In this document: one piece after another, positions 21,355 through 31,373 of the stretch
How positions within the stretch are numbered: position 1 is the stretch's first letter
Layout: the number at the start of each line of letters is the position of its first letter
NCBI RefSeq assembly: GCF_040947875.1
Contig: NZ_JBFRXN010000001.1
Coordinates: 682,001-746,000, forward strand
DNA length: 64,000 nt
Reading direction: 5' to 3'
Source: Pseudomonas sp. MYb118
GTDB lineage: Bacteria; Pseudomonadota; Gammaproteobacteria; Pseudomonadales; Pseudomonadaceae
Made by a program: the position numbers and the translations under genes
Notes under the pieces: model-generated
The model's database searches: none
Told to the model about the DNA's origin: nothing
Seen by the model: only the letters and a program-made list of their open reading frames with translations

Positions 21355-21442
21355 TGTAGGAGCGAGCTTGCTCGCGATGCGGTGTGTCATTCAAAACTGT
21401 ATCGCCTGACCCACCGCCATCGCGAGCAAGCTCGCTCCTACA
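21355..21442. repeat. REP doublet (REPIN)
   Basis: Arms TGTAGGAGCGAGCTTGCTCG and complement, spacer GGTGTGTCATTCAAAACTG in the reverse sense of the 20057 copy. Located 18 bases before the operator-like site in front of the acetamidase-family gene. Confidence 0.9.
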
Positions 21443-21459
21443 GGGGAACCGGTCGCTCA

Positions 21460-21495
21460 TGTATCGCAGTGTATCCAGACACCCTCTCGATACAC
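21460..21495. promoter_or_regulatory. Operator-like site, copy A (TGTATC family)
   Basis: TGTATCGCAGTGTATC is followed after 13 bases by GATACAC. TGTATC repeats directly at 10-base spacing, the arrangement favoured by OmpR-family response regulators. The GATACA half-site starts exactly 29 bases after the first base, as in the three other copies. It lies 101 bases before the acetamidase-family start codon. A further GATACAAACCTGCGATC at 21533-21549 is an inverted, looser match. Confidence 0.7.
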
Positions 21496-21595
21496 TCCGC
21501 ACCATTTCCCGCTCGCCCCCGAACACAGCCCAGATACAAACCTGCGATCAACTGGCCGGGCCGTTTGGCGCCCTATAACCGTCCAGGGGATAACA

Positions 21596-22930
21596 ATGAG
21601 CACGCTCCAGCCTGAAACAGACCGCAAATCCACGCCCGTCGAGTACCTGCGCGTCGAGCAATACACATCCGGCATCATCGGCCCCAGCCAGCCGATGCTC
21701 GGCCCGTTGGCCGACGGTGGCACCCTGATCACCGGCACGCCGCCGGGCTGTTGGGGGCCGATGATCACGCCGGCCTTCGAGGGCGGTCATGAGGTGACGC
21801 AACCGGTGGCCATCGCCGGCGCCGAGGTGGGCGATGCGGTGGCGATCCGGATCAAGCGCATGCGCGTGACCTCCCAGGCCACGTCTTCGGGCGTGATGAG
21901 CTTCGTCGAAGGCCGTTATCACGGTGACCCGTTCGTTTCCAAATTCTGCTCCCAGTGCGGCACCGAGCACCCGGCCAGCCACGTCGAAGGCATCGGCGAG
22001 GACTCGATCCGCTGCAACACCTGCGGCGCCGAGGTCAGCGCCTTTCGTTTCAGCCACGGCTACGTGATCGTGTTCGATGCGCAGAACCAGGTCAGCCTCA
22101 CCGTTAACCAGGACATCGCCAACCGCCTGGCCGGCCATGCGCCGCAAATGTCGGCATTGCCGGAACTGGCCGCCCAGCACTCGATCCTGTCGCTGGCCCG
22201 CGCCGACATGCCCGGCGTCGCCGCCCATATGCGGCCGTTCCTCGGCAACATCGGCACCACGCCGTCCCGTGACTTGCCGGATTCGCACAACTGCGCCGAC
22301 TTCGGCCAGTACCTGATCGGCGCGCCACACCGCTTCGGCATGACCCGCGAAGAACTGCACGCAGCCAAGACCGATGGCCACATGGACACCAACTCGATCC
22401 GGGAAGGCTGCGTGCTGATTTGCCCGGTGAAAGTACCGGGTGCCGGGGTCTACATGGGCGACATGCATGCCCAGCAGGGCAACGGTGAAATCGCCGGGCA
22501 CGCCACCGACTGCTCCGGGGAAACCGAAGTGCAGGTGCAGGTGATCAAGGACCTGACCCTGGAAGGCCCGATCCTGCTACAGAACCTCGATGACCTGCCG
22601 CCCATGGCGCGGCCGATGACCGCCGAGCAACGGCAGAAAGTCCGCGAGCTGGGCCAGCGCTGGGGCCAGACCGAGATCGAGCAAAGCGGCCCGATCACCT
22701 TCATCGGCAGCGGCGAAAACCTCAACGTGGCGGTGGAAAACGGCTTGCAACGCGCCGCCAGCGTCACCGGCCTGCCGTATGACGAGGTGCTCAACCGCGC
22801 AACCATCACCGGTTCGATCGACATCAGCCGCTTGCCAGGCACCGTACGCGTGACGTTCCTGTGCCCGATGGCCGTACTCGATCGCCTCTGCATCGGCCAA
22901 TTGGTGCGTGAGCAATACGACCTGGCGTAA
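21596..22930 (+). CDS. Acetamidase/formamidase family protein with zinc-ribbon insert
   Basis: 444 aa. FmdA/AmdA family features include TGTPPGCWGPMITP, the region DAVAIRIKRMRV, DLPDSHNCADFGQ and GVYMGDMHAQQGNGEI. Two CxxC pairs, CSQCG at about residue 120 and CNTCG about 20 residues later, form a probable zinc ribbon that the simplest family members lack. Members hydrolyse small amides to ammonia and acid; the substrate here is unknown. RBS AGGGGA. An operator-like site precedes it and another follows it, before DUF692. Regulation together with the MNIO genes is inferred. Confidence 0.82.
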   Translation: MSTLQPETDRKSTPVEYLRVEQYTSGIIGPSQPMLGPLADGGTLITGTPPGCWGPMITPAFEGGHEVTQPVAIAGAEVGDAVAIRIKRMRVTSQATSSGVMSFVEGRYHGDPFVSKFCSQCGTEHPASHVEGIGEDSIRCNTCGAEVSAFRFSHGYVIVFDAQNQVSLTVNQDIANRLAGHAPQMSALPELAAQHSILSLARADMPGVAAHMRPFLGNIGTTPSRDLPDSHNCADFGQYLIGAPHRFGMTREELHAAKTDGHMDTNSIREGCVLICPVKVPGAGVYMGDMHAQQGNGEIAGHATDCSGETEVQVQVIKDLTLEGPILLQNLDDLPPMARPMTAEQRQKVRELGQRWGQTEIEQSGPITFIGSGENLNVAVENGLQRAASVTGLPYDEVLNRATITGSIDISRLPGTVRVTFLCPMAVLDRLCIGQLVREQYDLA

Positions 22931-22946
22931 GCCACGCCGGCCGGTC

Positions 22947-22982
22947 TGTATCGCAGTGTGTACAGGCCGGCCGACGATACAC
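22947..22982. promoter_or_regulatory. Operator-like site, copy B (TGTATC family)
   Basis: TGTATCGCAGTGTGTA, then GATACAC starting 29 bases after the first base. It is 91 bases before the DUF692 start. A second, looser element GATACAC...TGCGATC at 23019-23045 parallels the one after copy A. This indicates that the DUF692-DUF2063 pair has its own promoter. Confidence 0.7.
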
Positions 22983-23072
22983 AGGCGGTGATTTTGCCGC
23001 GGCTCGCCACACATCCCCGATACACCGGTTCGATTAACTGCGATCACCTCCTGACGACTTGAGATCGACATC

Positions 23073-23912
23073 ATGCAAACCTCTTTCACCACTTCCAAGG
23101 CCAGTGTCGGCCTGGGCCTGCGGCGTGGCTTGATGCAAGACCTGCTGGCGGCACCCACCGGCGCTTTCGACTTCCTGGAAGTTGCCCCGGAAAACTGGAT
23201 CGGCATCGGCGGCGCCCATGGCGCGGCGCTGCGGACCCTGGCCGAGCGTTATCCGTTGTCCTGCCACGGTTTGTCGTTGTCGCTGGGCGGGCCGGCCCCT
23301 CTGGACGTCCAGTTCCTGAAAGAAGTGCGGGTGTTCCTCGATCACCACGACGTGCCGCTGTACAGCGAGCACCTGAGTTATTGCAGCGATGACGGTCACC
23401 TCTACGACCTGTTGCCGATGCCCTTTACCGAAGAGGCGGTGCAGCACGTCGCCGCCCGCATCCGCCAGGCCCAGGACATCCTCGGCCGGCGCCTGGCGGT
23501 GGAGAACGTCTCCTACTACGCCGCACCCCGGCAGGACATGGACGAAGTGACCTTCACCAACGCGGTGCTGCGCGAAGCCGATTGCGACCTGCTGCTGGAC
23601 GTCAACAACGTGTACGTCAACTCGATCAACCATGGCTTCGACCCGCAGGTGTTCCTGGCCGGTATCGACGGTAGCCGGGTGGTGGCGATGCACGTGGCCG
23701 GGCATTTCGATGAATCGGACACGCTGAAGATCGACACACACGGCGCCTCGGTGAAACCGGTGGTCTGGTCGTTGCTGGCCGAGGCTTATGCGCGCTTTGG
23801 TGCGCAGCCGACCTTGCTGGAGCGGGATTTCAACTTCCCGGCCTTCACCGATCTGGTCGCCGAGTTGCAGACCATCCGCCGTTTGCAGAACGAGGGCTCG
23901 AATCGTGGCTAA
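23073..23912 (+). CDS. DUF692 / MNIO family enzyme (BufB/MbnB-like)
   Basis: 279 aa, normal for the family, TIM-barrel type. Candidate metal ligands are H65 (SCHGLSLS), E99/H100 (YSEHLSYC), E144 (AVENVSYY), D176 ([10 protein letters not shown]), H187, H207 and H211 (MHVAGH), H223 (DTHG) and E250 (LLERDFN), the pattern of multinuclear iron oxidative enzymes. Characterised members modify cysteines in precursor peptides such as methanobactin and bufferin. It overlaps the DUF2063 gene by eight bases, but no DUF2282 precursor gene adjoins it. The substrate may be encoded elsewhere. Confidence 0.88.
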
Positions 23913-24660
23913 ACCAGCGCTGTTCGACGAGCAGAACACCCTCGGTCGGTACCTGCGCGACCCCGAGCACTGTGCGCCGCCCGCCGGGATGGACGTGGCG
24001 CGGGTGCAGGTCTATCGCGACCTGATTTTCAACAACCTGTCGCTGTTGCTCAGTGGCACGTTCCCGGTGCTGATCAGGATCCTCGGCGATGAGCGCTGGC
24101 GTTCGCTGATGCGCATGTTCCTGCGCGACTACCGTGCGCGCACACCGAAGTTCGGCGAGATCGCCCAGGAGTTCGTCGAGTTCCTCGCCTCGCAGCCTGC
24201 GGCCTTGAACGAGGGCCCATGGCCGCCGTTCATGGTGGAGCTGGCGCATTACGAATGGGTCGAGATGGTATTGCAGCAGTCCGACGCCGAGCCGTTGCCC
24301 GGCGGAGATGCTGCACCGTTGCTGGGCTGCACCTTGCAGGTGTCGGCACTGGCGTGGCCTCTGGCCTATGCGTGGCCGGTGCATTTGGTGGGGCCTGACT
24401 ATCAACCTGAAACCCCGCCGGCCCAGCCGACTTTGTTGCTGGTGCAGCGCGCAGAAGACTGGCGAGTGAAGTTTTCCGAGCTGAGCCCGTTGGCGTGGCG
24501 GTTGTTGCAGCGCATCGGCGAGTTTCCGGCATTGACGGGGGCAGAGCAGTTGCAGGGCTTGGCGGTGGAGGCGGGCGCGGTGGGGTCGGATGAGTTCATC
24601 GACAACGGCGCGGCCTTGTTGGGGCAGATGCAGGCCGAAGGTGTAGTAAGCCCCCTGTAG
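23905..24660 (+). CDS. DUF2063 protein, MNIO partner (BufC/HvfC-like)
   Basis: 251 aa from GTG 23905, inside the end of the DUF692 gene. The DUF2063 N-terminal domain is visible: [17 protein letters not shown], then [20 protein letters not shown] and [12 protein letters not shown]. In known MNIO systems this partner binds the precursor leader and presents it to the enzyme. The stop codon TAG is the third to fifth base of the following REP doublet (TGTAGG), so insertion of the repeat set the present C-terminus (SPL). Confidence 0.86.
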
Positions 24661-24756
24661 GAGCAGCCGGTCGACGCTCGATTGCTCGCGATGCGGTGTG
24701 TCATCTAAAACTGTATTGGCTGACACACCGCCATCGCGAGCAAGCTCGCTCCTACA
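24656..24756. repeat. REP doublet with a 17-base insert in its left arm
   Basis: The left arm should read TGTAGGAGCGAGCTTGCTCG. Here GAGC is replaced by AGCCGGTCGACGCTCGA between TGTAGGAGC and TTGCTCGCGATG. The right arm is intact. A related insert is found in the right arm of the 41716 doublet. The first bases supply the stop codon of the DUF2063 gene. Located between convergent genes. Confidence 0.88.
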
Positions 24757-24769
24757 GGTGACAGCGTGG

Positions 24770-25717
24770 TCACGTCACCGAAAAGAAATACCGCGTCAGG
24801 TGAAAGAAAATCGGCGCCGCAAAGCAGATCGAGTCCATGCGGTCGAGCATGCCGCCGTGGCCCTTGATCATGGTGCCCCAGTCCTTGGCGCTGAGGCTGC
24901 GCTTGATCGCCGACATCACCAGCCCGCCAAGAAAACCCATGACGACGATGACAAACGACATCAGCAGCGACTGCCAGAAATTGAATGGGGTCATCCAGAA
25001 CATGCAGCCGCCGATCAAGGTCGCCGACAGCCCACCGCCGACCAGGCCTTCCACGGTTTTTGACGGGCTCACCAGGGGCGCGACCTTGTGCTTGCCAAAC
25101 AGTTTGCCGAACACGTATTGCAGCACATCGCTCAGTTGCACGACGAACACCAGGTAGAACAGCAGCAAGGCGTTCTGGCCCCGGAAGCCTTCGAGGTCGA
25201 GCAGCAACAGCGCTGGCGCATGACTGATGCAGTAGATGCAGATCATCACCCCCCACTGGATCTTCGCGCTGCGTTCCAGGAATGCCTCGGTGTCCTGGCT
25301 CAGCACCGCAATCGCCGGCAGCAACAGGAAGGCATACACCGGAATCAGCAGGGTGAACATCGAGTACCAGTGCGTGCCGATCAGCAGGTATTGCAGCGGG
25401 ATCAGGATGAAAAACGCGGAAAACAGCGCGTTGTGGTCGCCCGGCCGGGTGGGCGTCAGGGTGATGAATTCCCTGAGCGCGAACAGCGAAATGAAAGCGA
25501 ACAACACCACCGTGGCATTCCCGCCCAACTGGTAGGACACGAAGAAGATAATCACCATCCCCCACCAGGCGTTTACCCGCTGGTTGAGGTTTTCCACGGT
25601 CGACACCGCGCTTTCCGACGTCGCACGCTTTGCCAGCACATGGCCGATGATCGAGGCCACTGCCAGCAGGCAGGCAATGGCGAAAAAGAACCACAGGAAC
25701 TTGGCTTCAAGACTCAT
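24770..25717 (-). CDS. Phosphatidate cytidylyltransferase-like (CdsA family)
   Basis: 315 aa, about eight membrane helices. The CdsA C-terminal signature is seen as SPSKTVEGLVGGG, then KDWGTMIKGHGGMLDRMDS. It makes CDP-diacylglycerol from phosphatidate and CTP in the inner membrane. Third gene of a leftward operon behind an acyltransferase and a CDP-alcohol transferase-like protein. The start overlaps the acyltransferase stop by four bases. The housekeeping cdsA of pseudomonads sits with dxr and ispU, so this is likely a second copy for a special lipid. Confidence 0.88.
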   Translation of the reverse strand: MSLEAKFLWFFFAIACLLAVASIIGHVLAKRATSESAVSTVENLNQRVNAWWGMVIIFFVSYQLGGNATVVLFAFISLFALREFITLTPTRPGDHNALFSAFFILIPLQYLLIGTHWYSMFTLLIPVYAFLLLPAIAVLSQDTEAFLERSAKIQWGVMICIYCISHAPALLLLDLEGFRGQNALLLFYLVFVVQLSDVLQYVFGKLFGKHKVAPLVSPSKTVEGLVGGGLSATLIGGCMFWMTPFNFWQSLLMSFVIVVMGFLGGLVMSAIKRSLSAKDWGTMIKGHGGMLDRMDSICFAAPIFFHLTRYFFSVT

Positions 25718-26313
25718 TTCGACAGCCTCACGATGGCGTCACGGGCACGCTCCAGGAACATTTCCTTGTCCTCAGCGGCGATACGTTCCAGCGGGTTGCC
25801 GATGCGGATGGTGCAGATGATCGGCAACGGCACGTGTTTGCCCTTGGGCATCGAGCGGTGCAGGTTTTCCAGGTAGATCGGCACCAGGTCGACGTCGGGG
25901 AACGTCTGCGCCAATCGGTACAGCCCCGATTTGAACGGGCCGGGCAGGGCCTGGCTGGAGCGCGTGCCTTCGGGGAAAATGATGATCGAATGGCCGGCGC
26001 GCACCACCTCGAAAATCGGCTCCAGCACATTGACCCCCGGCGCCGGGTTGCGCTCGATCAGCACGGCGTTCAGGCCCTGCTGCGAGATGTACGACAGGAA
26101 GCGGTTCTTGCCCCAGTAGTCGGCAGCGGCCACCGGTTTCACATTCCGGCGTGCCTCCGGGGGCAGGGCGGCGATGATCGCCAGGGTGTCCATGTGGCTG
26201 GTGTGATTGGCGAAGTAGATGCGCTGGCGCGACAGGTCCGGCGGGCTTTCCCAGCGTGCCGTGACGCCGATGAGAAAGCGCAGGACGGAAATCAATGCGT
26301 TACTGATCAACAT
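25714..26313 (-). CDS. 1-acylglycerol-3-phosphate acyltransferase-like (PlsC family)
   Basis: 199 aa. The HX4D motif appears as NHTSHMD near residue 36, and the acceptor motif as FPEGTRSSQALPG. PlsC-type enzymes acylate lysophosphatidate at position 2. The gene overlaps both neighbours (14 bases with the CDP-alcohol transferase-like gene, four with cdsA-like), so the three are a tight operon. In combination they could make CDP-diacylglycerol and attach an alcohol head group. Confidence 0.86.
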   Translation of the reverse strand: MLISNALISVLRFLIGVTARWESPPDLSRQRIYFANHTSHMDTLAIIAALPPEARRNVKPVAAADYWGKNRFLSYISQQGLNAVLIERNPAPGVNVLEPIFEVVRAGHSIIIFPEGTRSSQALPGPFKSGLYRLAQTFPDVDLVPIYLENLHRSMPKGKHVPLPIICTIRIGNPLERIAAEDKEMFLERARDAIVRLSK

Positions 26314-26932
26314 GGGCAGCCCCCTTGAGTTGCCGGGCGATGGCCAGCGTGCGCGTGACGCAGGTGGCGACCGAGCCTGCGGCGATGATGATCAGCGCGA
26401 TCAACAGCAGGTAGTGACTGGCGTAAAGCGTGGCTTCGACGGCATTGAGCAGCAGCGCCACGGTCATCACCGCCATGCGGTGCTGCTTGGCCATCGGGCC
26501 GATGAAACTCTGCGCCAAGCCGATGGAGCCACCGAACACCCGTACATAGGCGGTCAGCGCCGCCGCCAGCGCAGCGAACCAGCCAAGATCCGGGTAGCCG
26601 ATGGCATAACCGAGCCCGACCAGTAGCAGGCTGTCGGCGATGCGGTCGGGAAACTCGTTGTACAGGCTGCCGATGTCCGATTTCCTGCCGCCCTCGATCG
26701 CCACCATGCCGTCGAACAGGTTGCACAACAGACGCAGTTGAATGCCGATGGCACAGAGGATCGAACCGATCACGCCGTTGTCGATGTTCAGCGCGATGAT
26801 GCCGATCAGGGCGAAAACGATGCTCGCCACGGAGATCTGATTGGGGGAGAGGTCGCGTTTGACCAGAAGGTCGGTGATGTATCTGGCCCATCGCGCAGAA
26901 CGCGTCTTGATGGGCCTGCGGTTTTCATCCAT
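26300..26932 (-). CDS. CDP-alcohol phosphatidyltransferase-like protein with altered catalytic motif
   Basis: 210 aa, about six membrane helices. The family motif DxxDGxxAR(x8)GxxxDxxxD is present with correct spacing but reads NLFDGMVAI, eight residues, then GSLYNEFPD. The first and third Asp are Asn and the Arg is Ile. A further Asp follows in DRIAD. This may be a distinct subfamily or an inactive partner. ATG 26932 has AAGG at eight bases; the ATG two codons upstream is too close to it. First gene of the phospholipid operon. Confidence 0.8.
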   Translation of the reverse strand: MDENRRPIKTRSARWARYITDLLVKRDLSPNQISVASIVFALIGIIALNIDNGVIGSILCAIGIQLRLLCNLFDGMVAIEGGRKSDIGSLYNEFPDRIADSLLLVGLGYAIGYPDLGWFAALAAALTAYVRVFGGSIGLAQSFIGPMAKQHRMAVMTVALLLNAVEATLYASHYLLLIALIIIAAGSVATCVTRTLAIARQLKGAAHVDQ

Positions 26933-27011
26933 TGGCATGTCCTTGGCAATGATGAATGGGGGGCTGGTGTTTCAATATAGAGGCTTTCCGTGGCCTCTGC
27001 TTTTTGCCCAC

Positions 27012-27111
27012 TGTGGGAGCGAGCCTGCTCGCGATGGACATCAATGTTCATGATGTCTGTCTGAATGCCCGTGGTGTCTGAACCACCATCGCGAGCAGGC
27101 TCGCTCCCACA
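27012..27111. repeat. REP doublet (REPIN)
   Basis: Arms TGTGGGAGCGAGCCTGCTCG and complement, with an inner spacer containing CATCAATGTTCATGATGTCTG. Located between the promoter side of the phospholipid operon and the end of the sensor kinase gene. Confidence 0.9.
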
Positions 27112-27125
27112 GGTGTGCAAAGGTT

Positions 27126-28439
27126 TCAGTGGTTCTGCAATTTTGCGGGCAACACCAACTCCGCACACAACCCACCTCCTTCACGATTGCTCAGGGTCAG
27201 CGCACCGCCGAGTGCCAGGGCCAGTTGCTGGGCGATCGCCAGGCCCAGGCCGGTGCCGCCGGTGCTGCGGTTGCGCGAGTTTTCCACGCGGTAGAACGGT
27301 TCCATCACGTGGGCCAGGTCTTCTTCGGAAATGCCCGGGCCGCGGTCCATGACTTTCACCGACAGCTTGCCATCAGGCTTGGCCTGCACCTGCAACTCGG
27401 CAGCACCGGCGAACTTCAGCGCGTTATCGGTGAGGTTCACCAGCACCCGGCGCAGGGCGTGGGGGCGGGTGTCGATCACCGCCTCACTCTTGCCGGTGAG
27501 CTGCACGTGCTTGTTCATGTCCTGGTAGTCGAACACCAGGCTGTCGAGGAACGAGTCCAGGTTGGTGCGACGGGTTTCCTCGGTGGCGCCGTGCACGCTG
27601 CGGGCATAGGCCACGCCTTCGCGCACCAGGTGTTCCATTTCGCTGAGGTCGTTCCACAGTTTGTCTTTTTCGACGCAGTCGTCCATGAACTCGGCGCGCA
27701 GTTTCATGCGGGTGATCGGCGTTTGCAGGTCGTGGGAAATCGCCGCCAGCAACTGCATGCGCTCCTTGAGGTACGCGGCGATGCGCGCCTGCATGGCGTT
27801 GAAGGCGCGGGCGGCATGGGCCACTTCGGTCGGGCCGGTTTCATCCAGGTGGATCGGATGGGTGTTGGGGTCCAGGGTCTCCACCGCCTGGGACAGGCGG
27901 GTGAGGGGGCCGATGGCGATGCGCACGGCCAGCCAGGTGCAGATGATCAACAGCGTCAATTGCCCCAGCAACACGAACGGCAGCCATGGCGACAGCGGCA
28001 CCATGCTCGGGCGCACGTCGATGGTCACCGGGCTGCCATCGGCCAGGTTCAGGTGCACCTGAAAGCGCTTGATCGGTCCGGGAATGTCGGTGACGGTCAT
28101 CGGGTAATCCATGCCGATGGCGTCCTTGATCGAGGTCACTGCAATCGGCGTATCGCTCAAGGCAGTACCCGGCGAGCCTTTGTCGAGCAGGTAGCGGTAG
28201 TTGCGTCGGTCCAGTTGCGGCAGCCAGCTGGCACGCTCGTCTGCCGGCAGGCGGTCGAGGATGGCGATTGACGTCGAAACGTCGGTTTCCAGGTTGCCGA
28301 GCATGGTGTTCTTCGCGCTTTCGTAGCGCTCGTAGTACTGCGCGCCGAAGGACAGGGCCTGGGCCAGGATCAGGCCGATCAGGAAGATCAGCGACAGGCG
28401 CGAGGCGAGGGTACGGGGCCAGCGCAGGGTTGTGTTCAT
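27126..28439 (-). CDS. Sensor histidine kinase of an EnvZ/OmpR-type pair
   Basis: 437 aa. Membrane helix at about 15-35, a periplasmic region of about 110 residues, second helix near 155-175, and HAMP. The phospho-accepting His lies in AAISHDLQTPITRMKLR. The ATPase has an N box (NLTDNALKFA), MDRGPGISEEDL, and STGGTGLGLAIAQQLA. The signal is unknown. The adjoining DUF2790, cysteine-peptide and thiol-reductase genes suggest a metal or redox stress of the periplasm. The start overlaps the regulator stop (TGATG), so the pair is co-translated. Confidence 0.92.
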   Translation of the reverse strand: MNTTLRWPRTLASRLSLIFLIGLILAQALSFGAQYYERYESAKNTMLGNLETDVSTSIAILDRLPADERASWLPQLDRRNYRYLLDKGSPGTALSDTPIAVTSIKDAIGMDYPMTVTDIPGPIKRFQVHLNLADGSPVTIDVRPSMVPLSPWLPFVLLGQLTLLIICTWLAVRIAIGPLTRLSQAVETLDPNTHPIHLDETGPTEVAHAARAFNAMQARIAAYLKERMQLLAAISHDLQTPITRMKLRAEFMDDCVEKDKLWNDLSEMEHLVREGVAYARSVHGATEETRRTNLDSFLDSLVFDYQDMNKHVQLTGKSEAVIDTRPHALRRVLVNLTDNALKFAGAAELQVQAKPDGKLSVKVMDRGPGISEEDLAHVMEPFYRVENSRNRSTGGTGLGLAIAQQLALALGGALTLSNREGGGLCAELVLPAKLQNH

Positions 28440-29176
28440 CAGAGTTCATCCAAAACTTCGACCGGCAGGGAGAACACATAGCCCTCACTGCGCACGGTCT
28501 TGATGTAGGCCGGTTCCCGCGCGTCGTCGAGCAAACGCTGACGCAAGCGGCTGACCAGCAGGTCGATGGAGCGGTCGAACAGGTCGGCGTCGCGACCCTG
28601 GGTCAGGTTCAGTAACTGATCGCGCGAGAGTACCCGTTGTGGGTGGTCGAGGAACACCCGCAGCAGGCGATATTCCGCGCCACTCAAGGCGACCATGGTG
28701 TCGTCCTTGTCCAGCAGATGGCGGGCCGAGGTGTCCAGGCGCCAGCGGCCGAAGCCCAGCATGCGTCCGCTTTCGGTGACGACCAGGTTGGGTGGCAGCA
28801 TGCGCGTGCGGCGCAGCACGGCGTTGATCCGCGCCAGCAGTTCGCGGGCGGCGAACGGCTTGACCAGGTAATCGTCGGCACCCATTTCCAGGCCGATGAT
28901 GCGGTCGGTTTCGTCATTGCGCGCGGTGAGCATCAGCACCGGCGTGGCCTTGTGTTTGCCGGCGCGGATCTCGCGGCACAGCATCAGGCCATCATCACCC
29001 GGCATCATGATGTCGAGCACGATCAGGTCCACCGGTGTCGATTCCAGGAACGTGCGCATCTGGCGGCCGTCCGCGACCACCGTGGTGCGCAAGCCGTTCT
29101 TCTTCAGGTAGTTGCCTACCAGTTCTCGAATCTCGCGGTCATCGTCCACGATGAGAATGTGATCGACGTGTTCCAT
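28439..29176 (-). CDS. OmpR-family response regulator
   Basis: 245 aa from ATG 29176. The receiver domain has the acidic pair VDDD, the phospho-accepting Asp in LIVLDIMMPGDDG, and the Lys in DDYLVKPFAARELLARI. The winged-helix domain ends SLRQRLLDDA-like, with YIKTVRSEGYVFS. An 87-residue upstream extension runs through the operator-like region and is rejected. It is first in its operon. Two copies of the TGTATC-family site lie just upstream, so autoregulation and control of the 21.5-23 kb genes are likely. Confidence 0.92.
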   Translation of the reverse strand: MEHVDHILIVDDDREIRELVGNYLKKNGLRTTVVADGRQMRTFLESTPVDLIVLDIMMPGDDGLMLCREIRAGKHKATPVLMLTARNDETDRIIGLEMGADDYLVKPFAARELLARINAVLRRTRMLPPNLVVTESGRMLGFGRWRLDTSARHLLDKDDTMVALSGAEYRLLRVFLDHPQRVLSRDQLLNLTQGRDADLFDRSIDLLVSRLRQRLLDDAREPAYIKTVRSEGYVFSLPVEVLDEL

Positions 29177-29245
29177 GGGGCATGTCTCTGCAAAGGGGGA
29201 TGACACGCAGTCTATAGAGGCTTTTGCGGCTCTCCCGCAACGATT

Positions 29246-29281
29246 TGTATTGCAGTGTATCTGGCGTATCGAGGGATACAC
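29246..29281. promoter_or_regulatory. Operator-like site, copy C1 (TGTATC family)
   Basis: TGTATTGCAGTGTATC, 13 bases, then GATACAC, with the same 29-base offset as copies A and B. It lies in the 298-base divergent region between the response regulator (70 bases from its start) and the DUF2790 gene. Confidence 0.72.
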
Positions 29282-29313
29282 GCGGACAAAAAAACCACGA
29301 AATCCAGGGGTTT

Positions 29314-29349
29314 TGTATCGCTGTGTATCTACAGGCGTTCTGGATACGT
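29314..29349. promoter_or_regulatory. Operator-like site, copy C2 (TGTATC family)
   Basis: TGTATCGCTGTGTATC, 13 bases, then GATACGT, at the same 29-base offset. It is 68 bases downstream of copy C1 and 126 bases before the DUF2790 start codon. Two copies in one divergent region would allow control of both transcripts. Confidence 0.7.
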
Positions 29350-29474
29350 ACCGATTTACACGCGCTGATTCTCGACACAGACGAGATACCTCGCAGGTTT
29401 TAAATGGCTTCCATCGAGGCAACGCAAACCGCCTCACTCGAAGAAACCATCATTGAAACCTGGAGATAAGCACC

Positions 29475-29735
29475 ATGAACACTAAAGCCATCTACGCCGC
29501 CTGCCTGTTTGCCGCCCTGAACATCTGCACCCTGTCGGCCCGTGCCGAAGCCGATGTCAGCGAGAAAACCTACTCCTACGGCACCCACCTGGACATCAAG
29601 AAAGTCGTCTCGCTGTCCCAGGCCAGCGGTGATTCCTGCGGGATCGTCGATGCCAAGCTGACCTACCTGGACTCGCAGAACAAGACCCAGGTCCTGGACT
29701 ACCGCAAATTCGGCGAATGCGCCTCGGACAACTAA
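29475..29735 (+). CDS. DUF2790 small exported protein
   Basis: 86 aa with a Sec signal peptide ending ARAEA. The mature part has the DUF2790 pattern YSYGTHLDIKKVVS, CGIVDAKLTYLDS and LDYRKFGEC, with two cysteines (C55, C82) that could form a disulfide. DUF2790 proteins are common small periplasmic proteins of pseudomonads, often induced with two-component systems. Their function is unknown. RBS TGGAGA. First gene after the operator pair and divergent from the response regulator. Confidence 0.88.
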   Translation: MNTKAIYAACLFAALNICTLSARAEADVSEKTYSYGTHLDIKKVVSLSQASGDSCGIVDAKLTYLDSQNKTQVLDYRKFGECASDN

Positions 29736-29775: not shown

Positions 29776-29988
29776 ATGACCAACATCACCCGTTTCCTTA
29801 CCGCCGCTGCCTTCGCTTTCGCCGGCGCCGCCGCCCACGCCAACGCCGCCGTTGAGCAAAGCAGTTGCGGCAGCAGCACCTGCTTCCAGCTGACCCCGGT
29901 GAAAAACCAGGGCGCCCATGACTTCCTGGCACAGGACGGCACCAGCCGTACGCCGCAGGGGCAGTTGCTCGATAACCAGATGGCGTGA
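29776..29988 (+). CDS. Small exported two-cysteine peptide, unknown function
   Basis: 70 aa with GGAG seven bases before ATG. The Sec signal peptide is clear (FLTAAAFAFAGAAAHA), leaving a mature peptide of about 48 residues. Its only cysteines form SSCGSSTCF (C31, C36). The tail is polar and ends DNQMA. I do not recognise a family. It lies 40 bases after the DUF2790 gene, so it is probably in the same transcript, before dipZ. The size, signal peptide and Cys pair make it a candidate MNIO substrate or a thiol-redox client. This is inference. Confidence 0.75.
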   Translation: MTNITRFLTAAAFAFAGAAAHANAAVEQSSCGSSTCFQLTPVKNQGAHDFLAQDGTSRTPQGQLLDNQMA

Positions 29989-30013
29989 TGTTGGATGTAC
30001 GCCACAAATCCCC

Positions 30014-30103
30014 TGTGGGAGCGAGCCTGCTCGCGATGAGGGAGTGTCAGCCAACCTCGCTGTTGAATGTACTGGCCTCATCGCGAGCAGGCTCGCTCCC
30101 ACA
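30014..30103. repeat. REP doublet (REPIN)
   Basis: Arms TGTGGGAGCGAGCCTGCTCG and complement, spacer with GTGTCAGCCAACCTCGCTG. It separates the small peptide gene from dipZ by 155 bases, so dipZ may be partly uncoupled from the upstream promoter. Confidence 0.9.
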
Positions 30104-30143
30104 GGGGGAAAGATGTGATGTCTAATTCACCAAGGTGATCACC

Positions 30144-31373
30144 ATGTTCCTCATCGCTTTCCTGGGCGGCATCCTCACCGTCCTCAGCCCGTGCATCCTG
30201 CCGGTCGTGCCGTTCCTGTTCGCCGGTGTTGACCGCAGCCGTTCCTCGATCCTGCTCACCCTGGGCGGCATGGTCCTGACCTTCGCCCTGGTTTCCAGCC
30301 TGGCCGTGGTCAGCAGTGAGTGGGTGATCCAGGCCAATAACACCGGTCGCCATATCGCCCTGATCGTCATGGCGCTGTTCGCCCTGTCGCTGATTTCCGC
30401 GCGGGTCGGTGGCTGGCTGGCACGTCCGTTCGTGCTGCTGGGCAACCGCCTGGACCCGAGCACCCGCAAGATGTCCGGCCCGCTGGGCTCGCTGATGATC
30501 GGCGTCGCCACCGGCCTGCTGTGGGCGCCGTGTGCCGGGCCGATCCTCGGGGTGATCCTCACCGGGGCCATGCTGCAAGGCGCCAACGCACAAACCAGCC
30601 TGTTGCTGGTGGCGTATGGAGCGGGCAGCGCGCTGTCGCTGGGCACCCTGATTTTCGCCGGGCGTGGCCTGGTCAATCGCCTGAAAGCGTCGATTCCGGT
30701 CACCGGCTGGCTGCGTCGCGGTGCGGGCTTTGCCGTACTCGGCGCTGCGCTGGTGATTTCCACCGGTGCCGACAAGACCCTGCTGGCCGGTACGTCGTCC
30801 GAAGGCGTCAGCACCCTGGAGAAGGGCGTGCTCGAAGGCGTGCCGAAAGTGGTCGATTACCTGGTGAGCAAGGTCCAGGCCGACACCACCCAGGACAACG
30901 CCAAGGGCGCGATGCCATCGCTGAACGGTGCCGTGGAATGGATCAACTCGCCGGCGCTGAGCAACGAATCGCTCAAGGGCAAGGTCGTGCTGGTGGACTT
31001 CTGGACCTTCGACTGCATCAACTGCCAGCACACCCTGCCGTACGTGAAGGACTGGGCGCAGAAGTACGAGAAGGATGGCCTGGTGGTGATCGGGGTGCAC
31101 ACCCCGGAATACGGCTTCGAGCGCATCATCGACAACGTCAAGGCTCAGGTGAAGAAGCTCGGGATCACCTACCCGGTGGCCATCGACAACAACTATGCGA
31201 TCTGGCGCAACTTCGACAACCAGTACTGGCCGGCGCATTACCTGATCGACGCCAAGGGCCAGGTGCGCTACACCCACTTCGGTGAAGGTCGCTACGACGC
31301 CCAGGAAAAAATGATCCAGCAACTGCTGCAAGAGGCCAAGGCCGACGCCAAGGCCGCCACACCTGCCGCGTAA
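30144..31373 (+). CDS. dipZ: DipZ-type thiol-disulfide reductase (CcdA-like membrane domain + thioredoxin domain)
   Basis: 409 aa. The N-terminal CcdA-like membrane domain has the redox cysteines in LSPCILPVVP (C17) and LLWAPCAGPI. A periplasmic thioredoxin-like domain follows with FDCINCQH (C291, C294) and the cis-Pro region in YWPAHYLIDAKG. It carries electrons from cytoplasmic thioredoxin to periplasmic thiols. ATG 30144 has AAGG at a good distance; a GTG three codons upstream is an alternative. In this context it could keep the two-cysteine neighbours reduced. Confidence 0.9.
   Translation: MFLIAFLGGILTVLSPCILPVVPFLFAGVDRSRSSILLTLGGMVLTFALVSSLAVVSSEWVIQANNTGRHIALIVMALFALSLISARVGGWLARPFVLLGNRLDPSTRKMSGPLGSLMIGVATGLLWAPCAGPILGVILTGAMLQGANAQTSLLLVAYGAGSALSLGTLIFAGRGLVNRLKASIPVTGWLRRGAGFAVLGAALVISTGADKTLLAGTSSEGVSTLEKGVLEGVPKVVDYLVSKVQADTTQDNAKGAMPSLNGAVEWINSPALSNESLKGKVVLVDFWTFDCINCQHTLPYVKDWAQKYEKDGLVVIGVHTPEYGFERIIDNVKAQVKKLGITYPVAIDNNYAIWRNFDNQYWPAHYLIDAKGQVRYTHFGEGRYDAQEKMIQQLLQEAKADAKAATPAA

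Follow-up and report, generated by a model that had tools for sequence, protein, structure and literature searches.

The locus described here raises the question of which regulator acts at four copies of one precisely spaced site, and what the genes behind these copies have in common. The copies lie beside an acetamidase-family gene, a gene of the MNIO family (DUF692) and an OmpR-type two-component system in Pseudomonas sp. MYb118 (contig NZ_JBFRXN010000001.1, positions 682,001 to 746,000; this stretch of 64,000 nucleotides is called the window, and positions given without a contig are positions in it). We put at roughly 0.87 the probability that the sites are BfmR/RhpR boxes and that the regulator encoded in the window activates a scattered HvfABCX-type copper-peptide pathway together with further genes.

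A pattern scan of the window with TGTATYGCWGTGTRTM-N13-GATACR returned four sites without a mismatch, all on the forward strand (21460..21494, 22947..22981, 29246..29280 and 29314..29348), and in each of them the GATACR half-site begins exactly 29 bases after the first base, as the first-pass annotation of this DNA had stated; the pattern measures 35 nt, not the 36 given there. The gene context also stood: the site at 21460 precedes the FmdA/AmdA-family gene, the site at 22947 precedes the DUF692 gene, and the remaining two lie in tandem between the response regulator and DUF2790. The TGTATC repeats step by 10 bases as had been claimed, with the exception of site 22947, whose second repeat reads TGTGTA. 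No further match was present in the window at ≤3 mismatches, and 100 dinucleotide shuffles gave 0 matches. Extending the scan to the whole genome (6,579,872 bases in 4 contigs) revealed 7 matches at ≤3 mismatches, i.e., the four window sites and three others, with 0 matches to the reversed pattern at the same threshold. The four-site observation is therefore confirmed as real and far beyond chance.

The 35-nt pattern covers just the distal half of an operator that is about twice as long as first described. Downstream of three of the four window sites we found a second, oppositely oriented box and a -10-like hexamer, all on the forward strand, with GATAC at +73 for site 21460 (AACACA-N5-GATAC, 21522..21553, FmdA promoter; 1 mismatch to the proximal pattern), at +72 for site 22947 (CACACA-N5-GATAC, 23008..23039, hvfB promoter; 1 mismatch) and at +71 for site 29314 (GACACA-N5-GATAC, 29374..29405, DUF2790 promoter; 0 mismatches). 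Site 29246, the first of the tandem pair, has no proximal box of its own between +69 and +75. The proximal box is the distal box mirrored, with tandem half-sites at a 10-base step, and it is placed at the position expected for a -35 element. Geometry was quantified on 223 distinct sites at ≤2 mismatches, of which 103 remained after deduplication at 75% identity; they come from related genomes and are not independent. GATAC stood at +71 in 36 and at +72 in 43, together 79 of the 103 (expected: 0.1 per position), and the ACACA ten bases ahead of this second GATAC stood at +61 in 30 and at +62 in 37. The proximal box was present at ≤1 mismatch in 85 sites, and in these the hexamer 15 bases past the proximal GATAC carried T in first position in 95%, A in fourth position in 100% and T in sixth position in 100%; the search pattern had selected neither for the box nor for the hexamer. 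The boxes and the -10 are fixed in place while the DNA between them is variable. In class II activation, regulators of the OmpR/PhoB type bind where the -35 element would be. Since the proximal box sits at the -35 position at a fixed distance from the -10, class II activation of this type is most likely. A whole-genome scan with the proximal half alone at ≤1 mismatch gave 8 matches and 0 reversed; 6 were known operators, 1 was the promoter of an EGKCG precursor with EF-hands, and 1 was unexplained. By eye, this eighth match (C1:852760-852791) lacks a distal box, and the open reading frame behind it looks unrelated; it may be a chance match or an unrecognised target.

The genes that carry the operator point to a shared function. 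Behind site 22947 lie hvfB (23073..23912, forward strand), an MNIO gene (NF003818, 420.7 bits; cut-off 360), and hvfC (23905..24660, forward strand), which codes for an RRE-type partner (DUF2063; NF050145, 261.5 bits; cut-off 142), each the only match of its kind in the genome. Outside the window, the gene behind the site at C1:931777 codes for a secreted alpha/beta hydrolase and that behind the site at C3:653768 for a secreted repeat protein, while the third site (C1:1188366) lies ahead of a gene for a small EGKCG peptide, with a DoxX protein encoded next. A genome-wide protein search found two EGKCG precursors above the cut-off, at C1:1188048 and C2:840457 (NF050137, 24.7 and 24.8 bits; cut-off 19.5). 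Neither reached the HvfA equivalog NF050188 (20.2 and 23.5 bits; cut-off 95), and by these profiles both are HvfA-type precursors, not HvfA proper. The first (hvfA; 67 residues) consists of a signal peptide and then AEGKCGEGKCGAGE, and is directly followed by an HvfX-family protein (NF050144, 151.5 bits; cut-off 80). The second (132 residues), in which EGKCGEGKCG is joined to EF-hands, was first met through its promoter in the proximal-half scan and then confirmed by the protein search. The only HvfB, the only HvfC and the only two EGKCG precursors of the genome all carry the operator, and both precursors are encoded far from the single hvfBC pair, which gives three loci with a common operator. 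To judge from their families, these scattered genes look like one pathway for copper-binding peptides, in which HvfBC would modify both precursors.

We also compared precursor promoters at loci chosen by protein, namely all 21 EGKCG loci in the genus sample plus, for each of 12 genomes of other orders with a match, a single locus (a second locus of G038 was left out). Where the genome has the regulator, an operator was present upstream of 18 of 18 precursor genes; where it does not, the count was 0 of 15 (0 of 3 in the genus, 0 of 12 outside). The mismatch limits of this comparison were set afterwards from the data. The operator-bearing precursors had 0 proximal mismatches in 7 cases, 1 in 4, 2 in 4, 3 in 2 and 4 in 1, with a distal half of ≤4 mismatches at the right spacing; the 15 regulator-free precursors had at least 5 proximal and at least 7 distal mismatches. 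At ≤2 proximal mismatches the counts were 15 of 18 versus 0 of 15, a level reached by 1 of 4000 shuffled windows. One of the three regulator-free genus precursors (G011) shows no signal peptide and could be a remnant.

The repeat protein behind the C3 site matched the N-terminal model of PtrA (PA2808) weakly (33.2 bits versus a cut-off of 31), with no single stretch passing. Two adjoining secreted repeat proteins were also seen at L093:2455-2883 and L093:3112-4068, with AEGGSDR/AEGGADRLQELRERV units in the first and AADGADKVGANKL units in the second. The first has the operator ahead of it, a weak PtrA match and a signal peptide much like those of the EGKCG precursors; the second belongs to no Pfam or NCBIfam family. 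One idea that these sequences suggest is that secreted repeat proteins could be a second class of MNIO substrate.

A scan of named genomes for exact sites returned at least 119 stretches, the counts not being exhaustive. Among the matches listed, 104 stretches were titled Pseudomonas (by eye) and 15 otherwise, and 140 of 148 exact sites had a gene of our panel ≤480 bases downstream. The first-pass annotation had proposed checking whether matches in the genome and its relatives fall only upstream of the genes named there; here nearly all of the listed sites precede a gene of a small recurring set. The panel was drawn from earlier sites, and 140 of 148 is thus recurrence and not independent discovery. 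DUF2790 was the commonest gene behind the listed sites (83 of 148), followed by TlpA (27), hydrolase (12), DsbD-TlpA (5), HvfB (4), PtrA-like (3), EGKCG/EF-hand (2), FmdA (2), DUF4148 (1) and DoxX (1). The other 8 had no panel gene, several of these being truncated where the stretch ends. REP-like palindromic pairs of the CGCGAGCAAGCTCGCTCCTACAGG type occur in the window at 21357-21452, 24650-24757, 27010-27111 and 30013-30105. Because the first of these ends directly before site 21460, the sites might be taken for copies of a mobile or REP-like repeat. Such a repeat would hardly be limited to 7 copies in the genome, none of them outside promoters at ≤3 mismatches, with a panel gene just downstream of nearly every listed exact site, and with boxes and -10 held in place around variable DNA; we rejected it as having too few copies, tied to promoters, and give it next to no credence.

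Thirteen of the 15 listed stretches not titled Pseudomonas also hold a regulator 68–85% identical to that of the window; they comprise Caballeronia, one Burkholderia- and one Paraburkholderia-titled record, Massilia, a Rhodocyclales metagenome-assembled genome and one record titled Pantoea. Most listed Caballeronia stretches have the site flanked by the regulator on one side and a TlpA/DsbD-type gene on the other. The two exceptions among the 15 are L115, with a regulator elsewhere in its genome, and L118 (Paraburkholderia ribeironis), in whose genome no regulator of >50% identity was found. The record titled Pantoea sp. Cy-639 (L136, NZ_VWXI01000001.1), which has the operator together with DUF2790 and TlpA and whose regulator is 85% identical, looks like Pseudomonas DNA. 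In P. monteilii of the P. putida group (L165), the precursor, hvfB, hvfC, DoxX, kinase, regulator, DUF2790 and TlpA genes stand side by side.

If the window regulator acts at these sites, the two should occur together. In a survey of 199 genus genomes (regulator orthologue at E ≤1e-110, sites at ≤2 mismatches), regulator and sites were both present in 103, the regulator alone in 4 (G009, G072, G107 and G180), sites alone in 2 (G022 and G203) and neither in 90, and the reversed pattern gave 0 matches across the same 199 genomes. Sites in relatives that lack the two-component system, which the first-pass annotation had named as a refuting result, are nearly absent (2 genomes, against 90 with neither). 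A second set, of 57 genomes, was scanned with a slightly looser pattern; its 36 genus members divided 20/1/1/14 in the same order, and 2 of the 21 non-genus genomes had a 2-mismatch match; the control of this looser search was not empty, with 3 reversed-pattern matches in the 57 genomes, 1 of them in the genus. In G022 (L027/L088) the promoter is complete and no open reading frame of ≥90 residues lies within ~600 bases downstream. In G203 (L292, L238), the 16 kb around the remnant contain no match at E 1e-5 to the regulator, kinase, FmdA or DUF2790, HvfB is cut down to its first 54 residues, and the hydrolase behind another site seems, by eye, to end in a different frame from that of its relatives. 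Both genomes look like carriers of decayed regulons. Sites with 2 mismatches to the looser pattern were also seen ahead of a RidA-like gene and a cupin gene (L067 3001 and L082 3035; G034 and G002), and the regulon may be wider.

The regulator (28439..29176, reverse strand) is an OmpR-family response regulator with Response_reg and Trans_reg_C domains. Its BfmS/RhpS-like sensor histidine kinase (27126..28439, reverse strand) has HATPase and HAMP domains, with HisKA just under the cut-off, and adjoins the regulator in most orthologous loci. A heavy-metal regulator of the CopR/CzcR type was rejected (142.8 bits on that model versus 246.2 on OmpR, both under their cut-offs). The first-pass annotation had assigned all of these genes to the regulator at 28439-29176. 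Judged by co-occurrence, one OmpR-type regulator very probably controls them, and the regulon extends to at least four loci outside the window; control may not be exclusive to this regulator, given an orphan paralogue at G000:C4:758038-758769 (L037:9001-9732). The recognition helix FDRSIDLLVSRLRQRL is identical in the window regulator, this paralogue and the Caballeronia regulators of L153 and L171. The paralogue, or both regulators, could then act at the sites, and the window regulator would not be their sole controller. We regard this as unlikely, even with 89% identity overall, the shared helix, and a similar regulator copy that adjoins the repeat-protein gene and its site in G005, G002 and G016; we also count in its favour that the paralogue has no kinase homologue within the surrounding 14.7 kb and no operator at ≤3 mismatches before its gene. 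Many site-bearing genomes list a single regulator match, however, the window sites abut the window regulator, the pairing of regulator and site is kept as far as Caballeronia, and the identity of the box would be the same in either case. In L039, a kinase remnant that matches over part of its length follows a similar regulator copy.

As to the identity of the box, the first-pass annotation knew of no description of it. Since the distal box, read on the reverse strand, is exactly GATACAnnGC in three of the four window sites (21460, 29246, where it faces the regulator, and 29314; site 22947 has TACACActGC), and since RhpR half-sites are GTATC and GATAC, the site has in fact been described. In P. 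aeruginosa, BfmR footprints gave GATACAnnGC, with bfmR, PA4103-04 and PA4107-06-05 as direct targets (PMC4148453; this and the other papers cited by PMC number were covered as extracts). Chromatin immunoprecipitation sequencing of BfmR gave the motif TACAA-N3-GATACA, with enrichment highest in the regions of bfmR, pa4103 and pa4107; that study also found efhP raised 11,268-fold (PMC8025907). PA4106 is a DUF692 and PA4105 a DUF2063 protein (PMC4053335), so that species has a published DUF692/DUF2063 operon under BfmR control. In P. syringae, RhpR binds GTATC-N6-GATAC (PMC4191427), and RhpS is called the BfmS homologue in the literature on RhpRS of P. syringae and P. savastanoi. The window sites have GTATC and GATAC half-sites in both orientations at spacings other than N6; GTATC-N6-GATAC itself was not scanned for. 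Written as TGTATC, the site gave no literature match; published forms are GATACA or GTATC. The gene order of L040 (regulator, kinase, a ferric reductase-like protein of PF01794, as stated for PA4103, and HvfX; on the other strand hvfC, hvfB and an EGKCG/EF-hand precursor) matches the published P. aeruginosa bfmRS locus, and the L040 regulator is 94% identical to that of the window; we therefore infer that the window system is a BfmRS/RhpRS orthologue. With a DsbD-like gene near the regulator, DsbRS was also considered as the nearest known system and rejected; the literature gave brief mentions only and synteny pointed to BfmRS.

With BfmRS (PA4101-PA4102; PMC4148453, PMC8025907) the window shares an OmpR-type regulator and kinase, a GATACA box, probable autoregulation and a DUF692/DUF2063 target operon, whereas here hvfBC stands apart from the precursors and fmdA, DUF2790, DsbD-TlpA and the hydrolase carry the operator. 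The extracts of the BfmRS papers give half to a quarter of the array found here and do not discuss a copper pathway or one for ribosomally synthesized and post-translationally modified peptides. RhpRS (PMC4191427, PMC6426608) has the same half-sites and a self-activated regulator promoter; its published site is instead a single inverted repeat, and the focus of the extracts is repression of type III secretion. The oxazolin locus (hvfABCX) of Haemophilus influenzae and the captophorins (PMC13419390, PMC13097082) share with this genome a signal-peptide-bearing EGKCG precursor, an MNIO enzyme (HvfB), its HvfC partner and a DoxX-like HvfX. These genes form one operon in H. influenzae, whereas their putative counterparts here are spread over three loci with a common operator. 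Absorption at ~305 nm is reported for products of this class (PMC13097082). EfhP (PA4107) and the Buf_EGKC/EF-hand fusions (PMC4053335, PMC11559002, PMC12452194) likewise join EGKCG repeats to EF-hands. The efhP gene adjoins DUF692/DUF2063 in P. aeruginosa and is apart from them in P. fluorescens Pf0-1 (PMC4053335), as in the window genome. EfhP was studied as a calcium and iron protein, and one paper that notes both control by BfmRS and the EGKCG repeats puts forward a role in iron sensing (PMC11559002); the extracts do not link it to a remote MNIO through a shared operator. The term "two-component" occurs 0 times in PMC13419390, PMC13097082 and PMC12452194, and no paper naming both BfmR and MNIO was found in the literature searched. 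The link from BfmR to the thiooxazole pathway is implicit in print and is not drawn within that literature. New here are the geometry of distal half and mirrored box and the operator shared by hvfBC and both remote precursors; the box itself was already known as the BfmR/RhpR site.

In the mechanism that we propose, the kinase would phosphorylate the regulator, and regulator dimers would bind the distal tandem TGTATC half-sites with the single reversed half-site 29 bases in, as well as the mirrored tandem box GACACA-N5-GATAC 71–73 bases in. With this box at the -35 position and the -10-like hexamer T-N2-A-N-T beginning 15 bases after GATAC, class II activation would follow. The regulator would jointly switch on the only hvfB-hvfC pair in the window, hvfA and hvfX at C1:1188 kb and the EF-hand precursor at C2:840 kb, and would also serve fmdA, DUF2790 with DsbD-TlpA, the secreted hydrolase, the repeat protein and probably its own operon. 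Binding, activation and the thiooxazole and copper chemistry are taken from the literature on other species, and the window copy would act alike.

Several points weigh against this account. Control in this strain is read from sites, spacing, promoter geometry, co-occurrence and synteny, and the probable orthology with BfmRS/RhpRS from synteny. The two regulator copies of the genome may share sites through their common helix. Exact GATACAnnGC was found in only 3 of the 4 window sites and 66 of the 103 deduplicated sites (85 of 103 if KAYACAnnGC is allowed), and 18 of the 103 have no proximal box, 11 of these being the first of a tandem pair. Four genus genomes have the regulator and no site at ≤2 mismatches. 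A looser search of 6 genomes, these four among them, found a 1-mismatch site in G180, nothing better than 3-mismatch sites in G072 and no site in either G009 or G107; at 3 mismatches its control gave 4 reversed-pattern matches in the same 6 genomes. Paraburkholderia ribeironis has a full operator with proximal box ahead of a DUF4148 gene (L118:7336-7822), and no regulator of >50% identity was found in its genome. BfmR has also been assigned another motif, CGTAC-N0,5-CGTAC, with siderophore targets (PMC10924945).

The further genes beside the window sites, all on the forward strand, are as follows. The acetamidase/formamidase-family gene (21596..22930; FmdA_AmdA, PF03069, 146.7 bits; cut-off 27) is far below the formamidase equivalog (31.5 versus a cut-off of 500). 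DUF2790 (29475..29735; PF10976, 61.7 bits; cut-off 27) codes for a small secreted protein. It is followed by a 70-residue secreted peptide with CGSSTC (29776..29988), which has no family match, is probably in the DUF2790 operon and has a homologue adjoining DUF2790 in several relatives; we rejected it as an MNIO precursor, since it lacks a KCG repeat and belongs to no known family, and the genome has two EGKCG precursors. The gene at 30135..31373 joins a DsbD-like membrane domain (DsbD_TM just under the cut-off) to a TlpA-like thioredoxin domain (Redoxin and AhpC-TSA above it).

As to what the system responds to, a review lists the signal of RhpRS as unknown (PMC7691447). The regulon could answer a general envelope, osmotic or nutrient stress, with the copper-peptide genes as one output and copper or thiol stress not the signal. 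We give this almost an even chance: BfmRS is tied to osmotic stress and siderophores (PMC10924945) and, elsewhere in the literature, to biofilm and quorum sensing, RhpRS is tied to nutrient state and type III secretion, and a metal site in the kinase sensor was rejected, with no conserved Cys/His/Met cluster seen by eye in 20-odd aligned kinases. Set against it, the operators are found repeatedly with genes for MNIO enzymes, EGKCG precursors, HvfX and thioredoxin-like proteins, and the strongest BfmR targets of P. aeruginosa include the MNIO operon (PMC8025907).

BfmRS and RhpRS have mostly been discussed as virulence or metabolism switches (biofilm, quorum sensing, type III secretion), yet the most conserved of their promoters in this analysis stand ahead of the genes of a copper-peptide pathway and of periplasmic thiol genes, and this points to a class of signals that can be tested. 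As a search pattern, the fixed promoter geometry is more specific than the half-sites in print, and through a shared operator MNIO precursors could be paired with enzymes that are encoded elsewhere, as in this genome. Tentatively, and at somewhat less than even odds, we propose that BfmRS/RhpRS may at root be an envelope metal- or thiol-stress system whose older output, from Burkholderiaceae and Massilia to Pseudomonas, would be a periplasmic thioredoxin-like protein, the thiooxazole metallophore pathway having been added in Pseudomonas. If so, the operator would find partners and substrates of scattered MNIO enzymes, possibly including Cys-free repeat proteins with EGKCG-like signal peptides.

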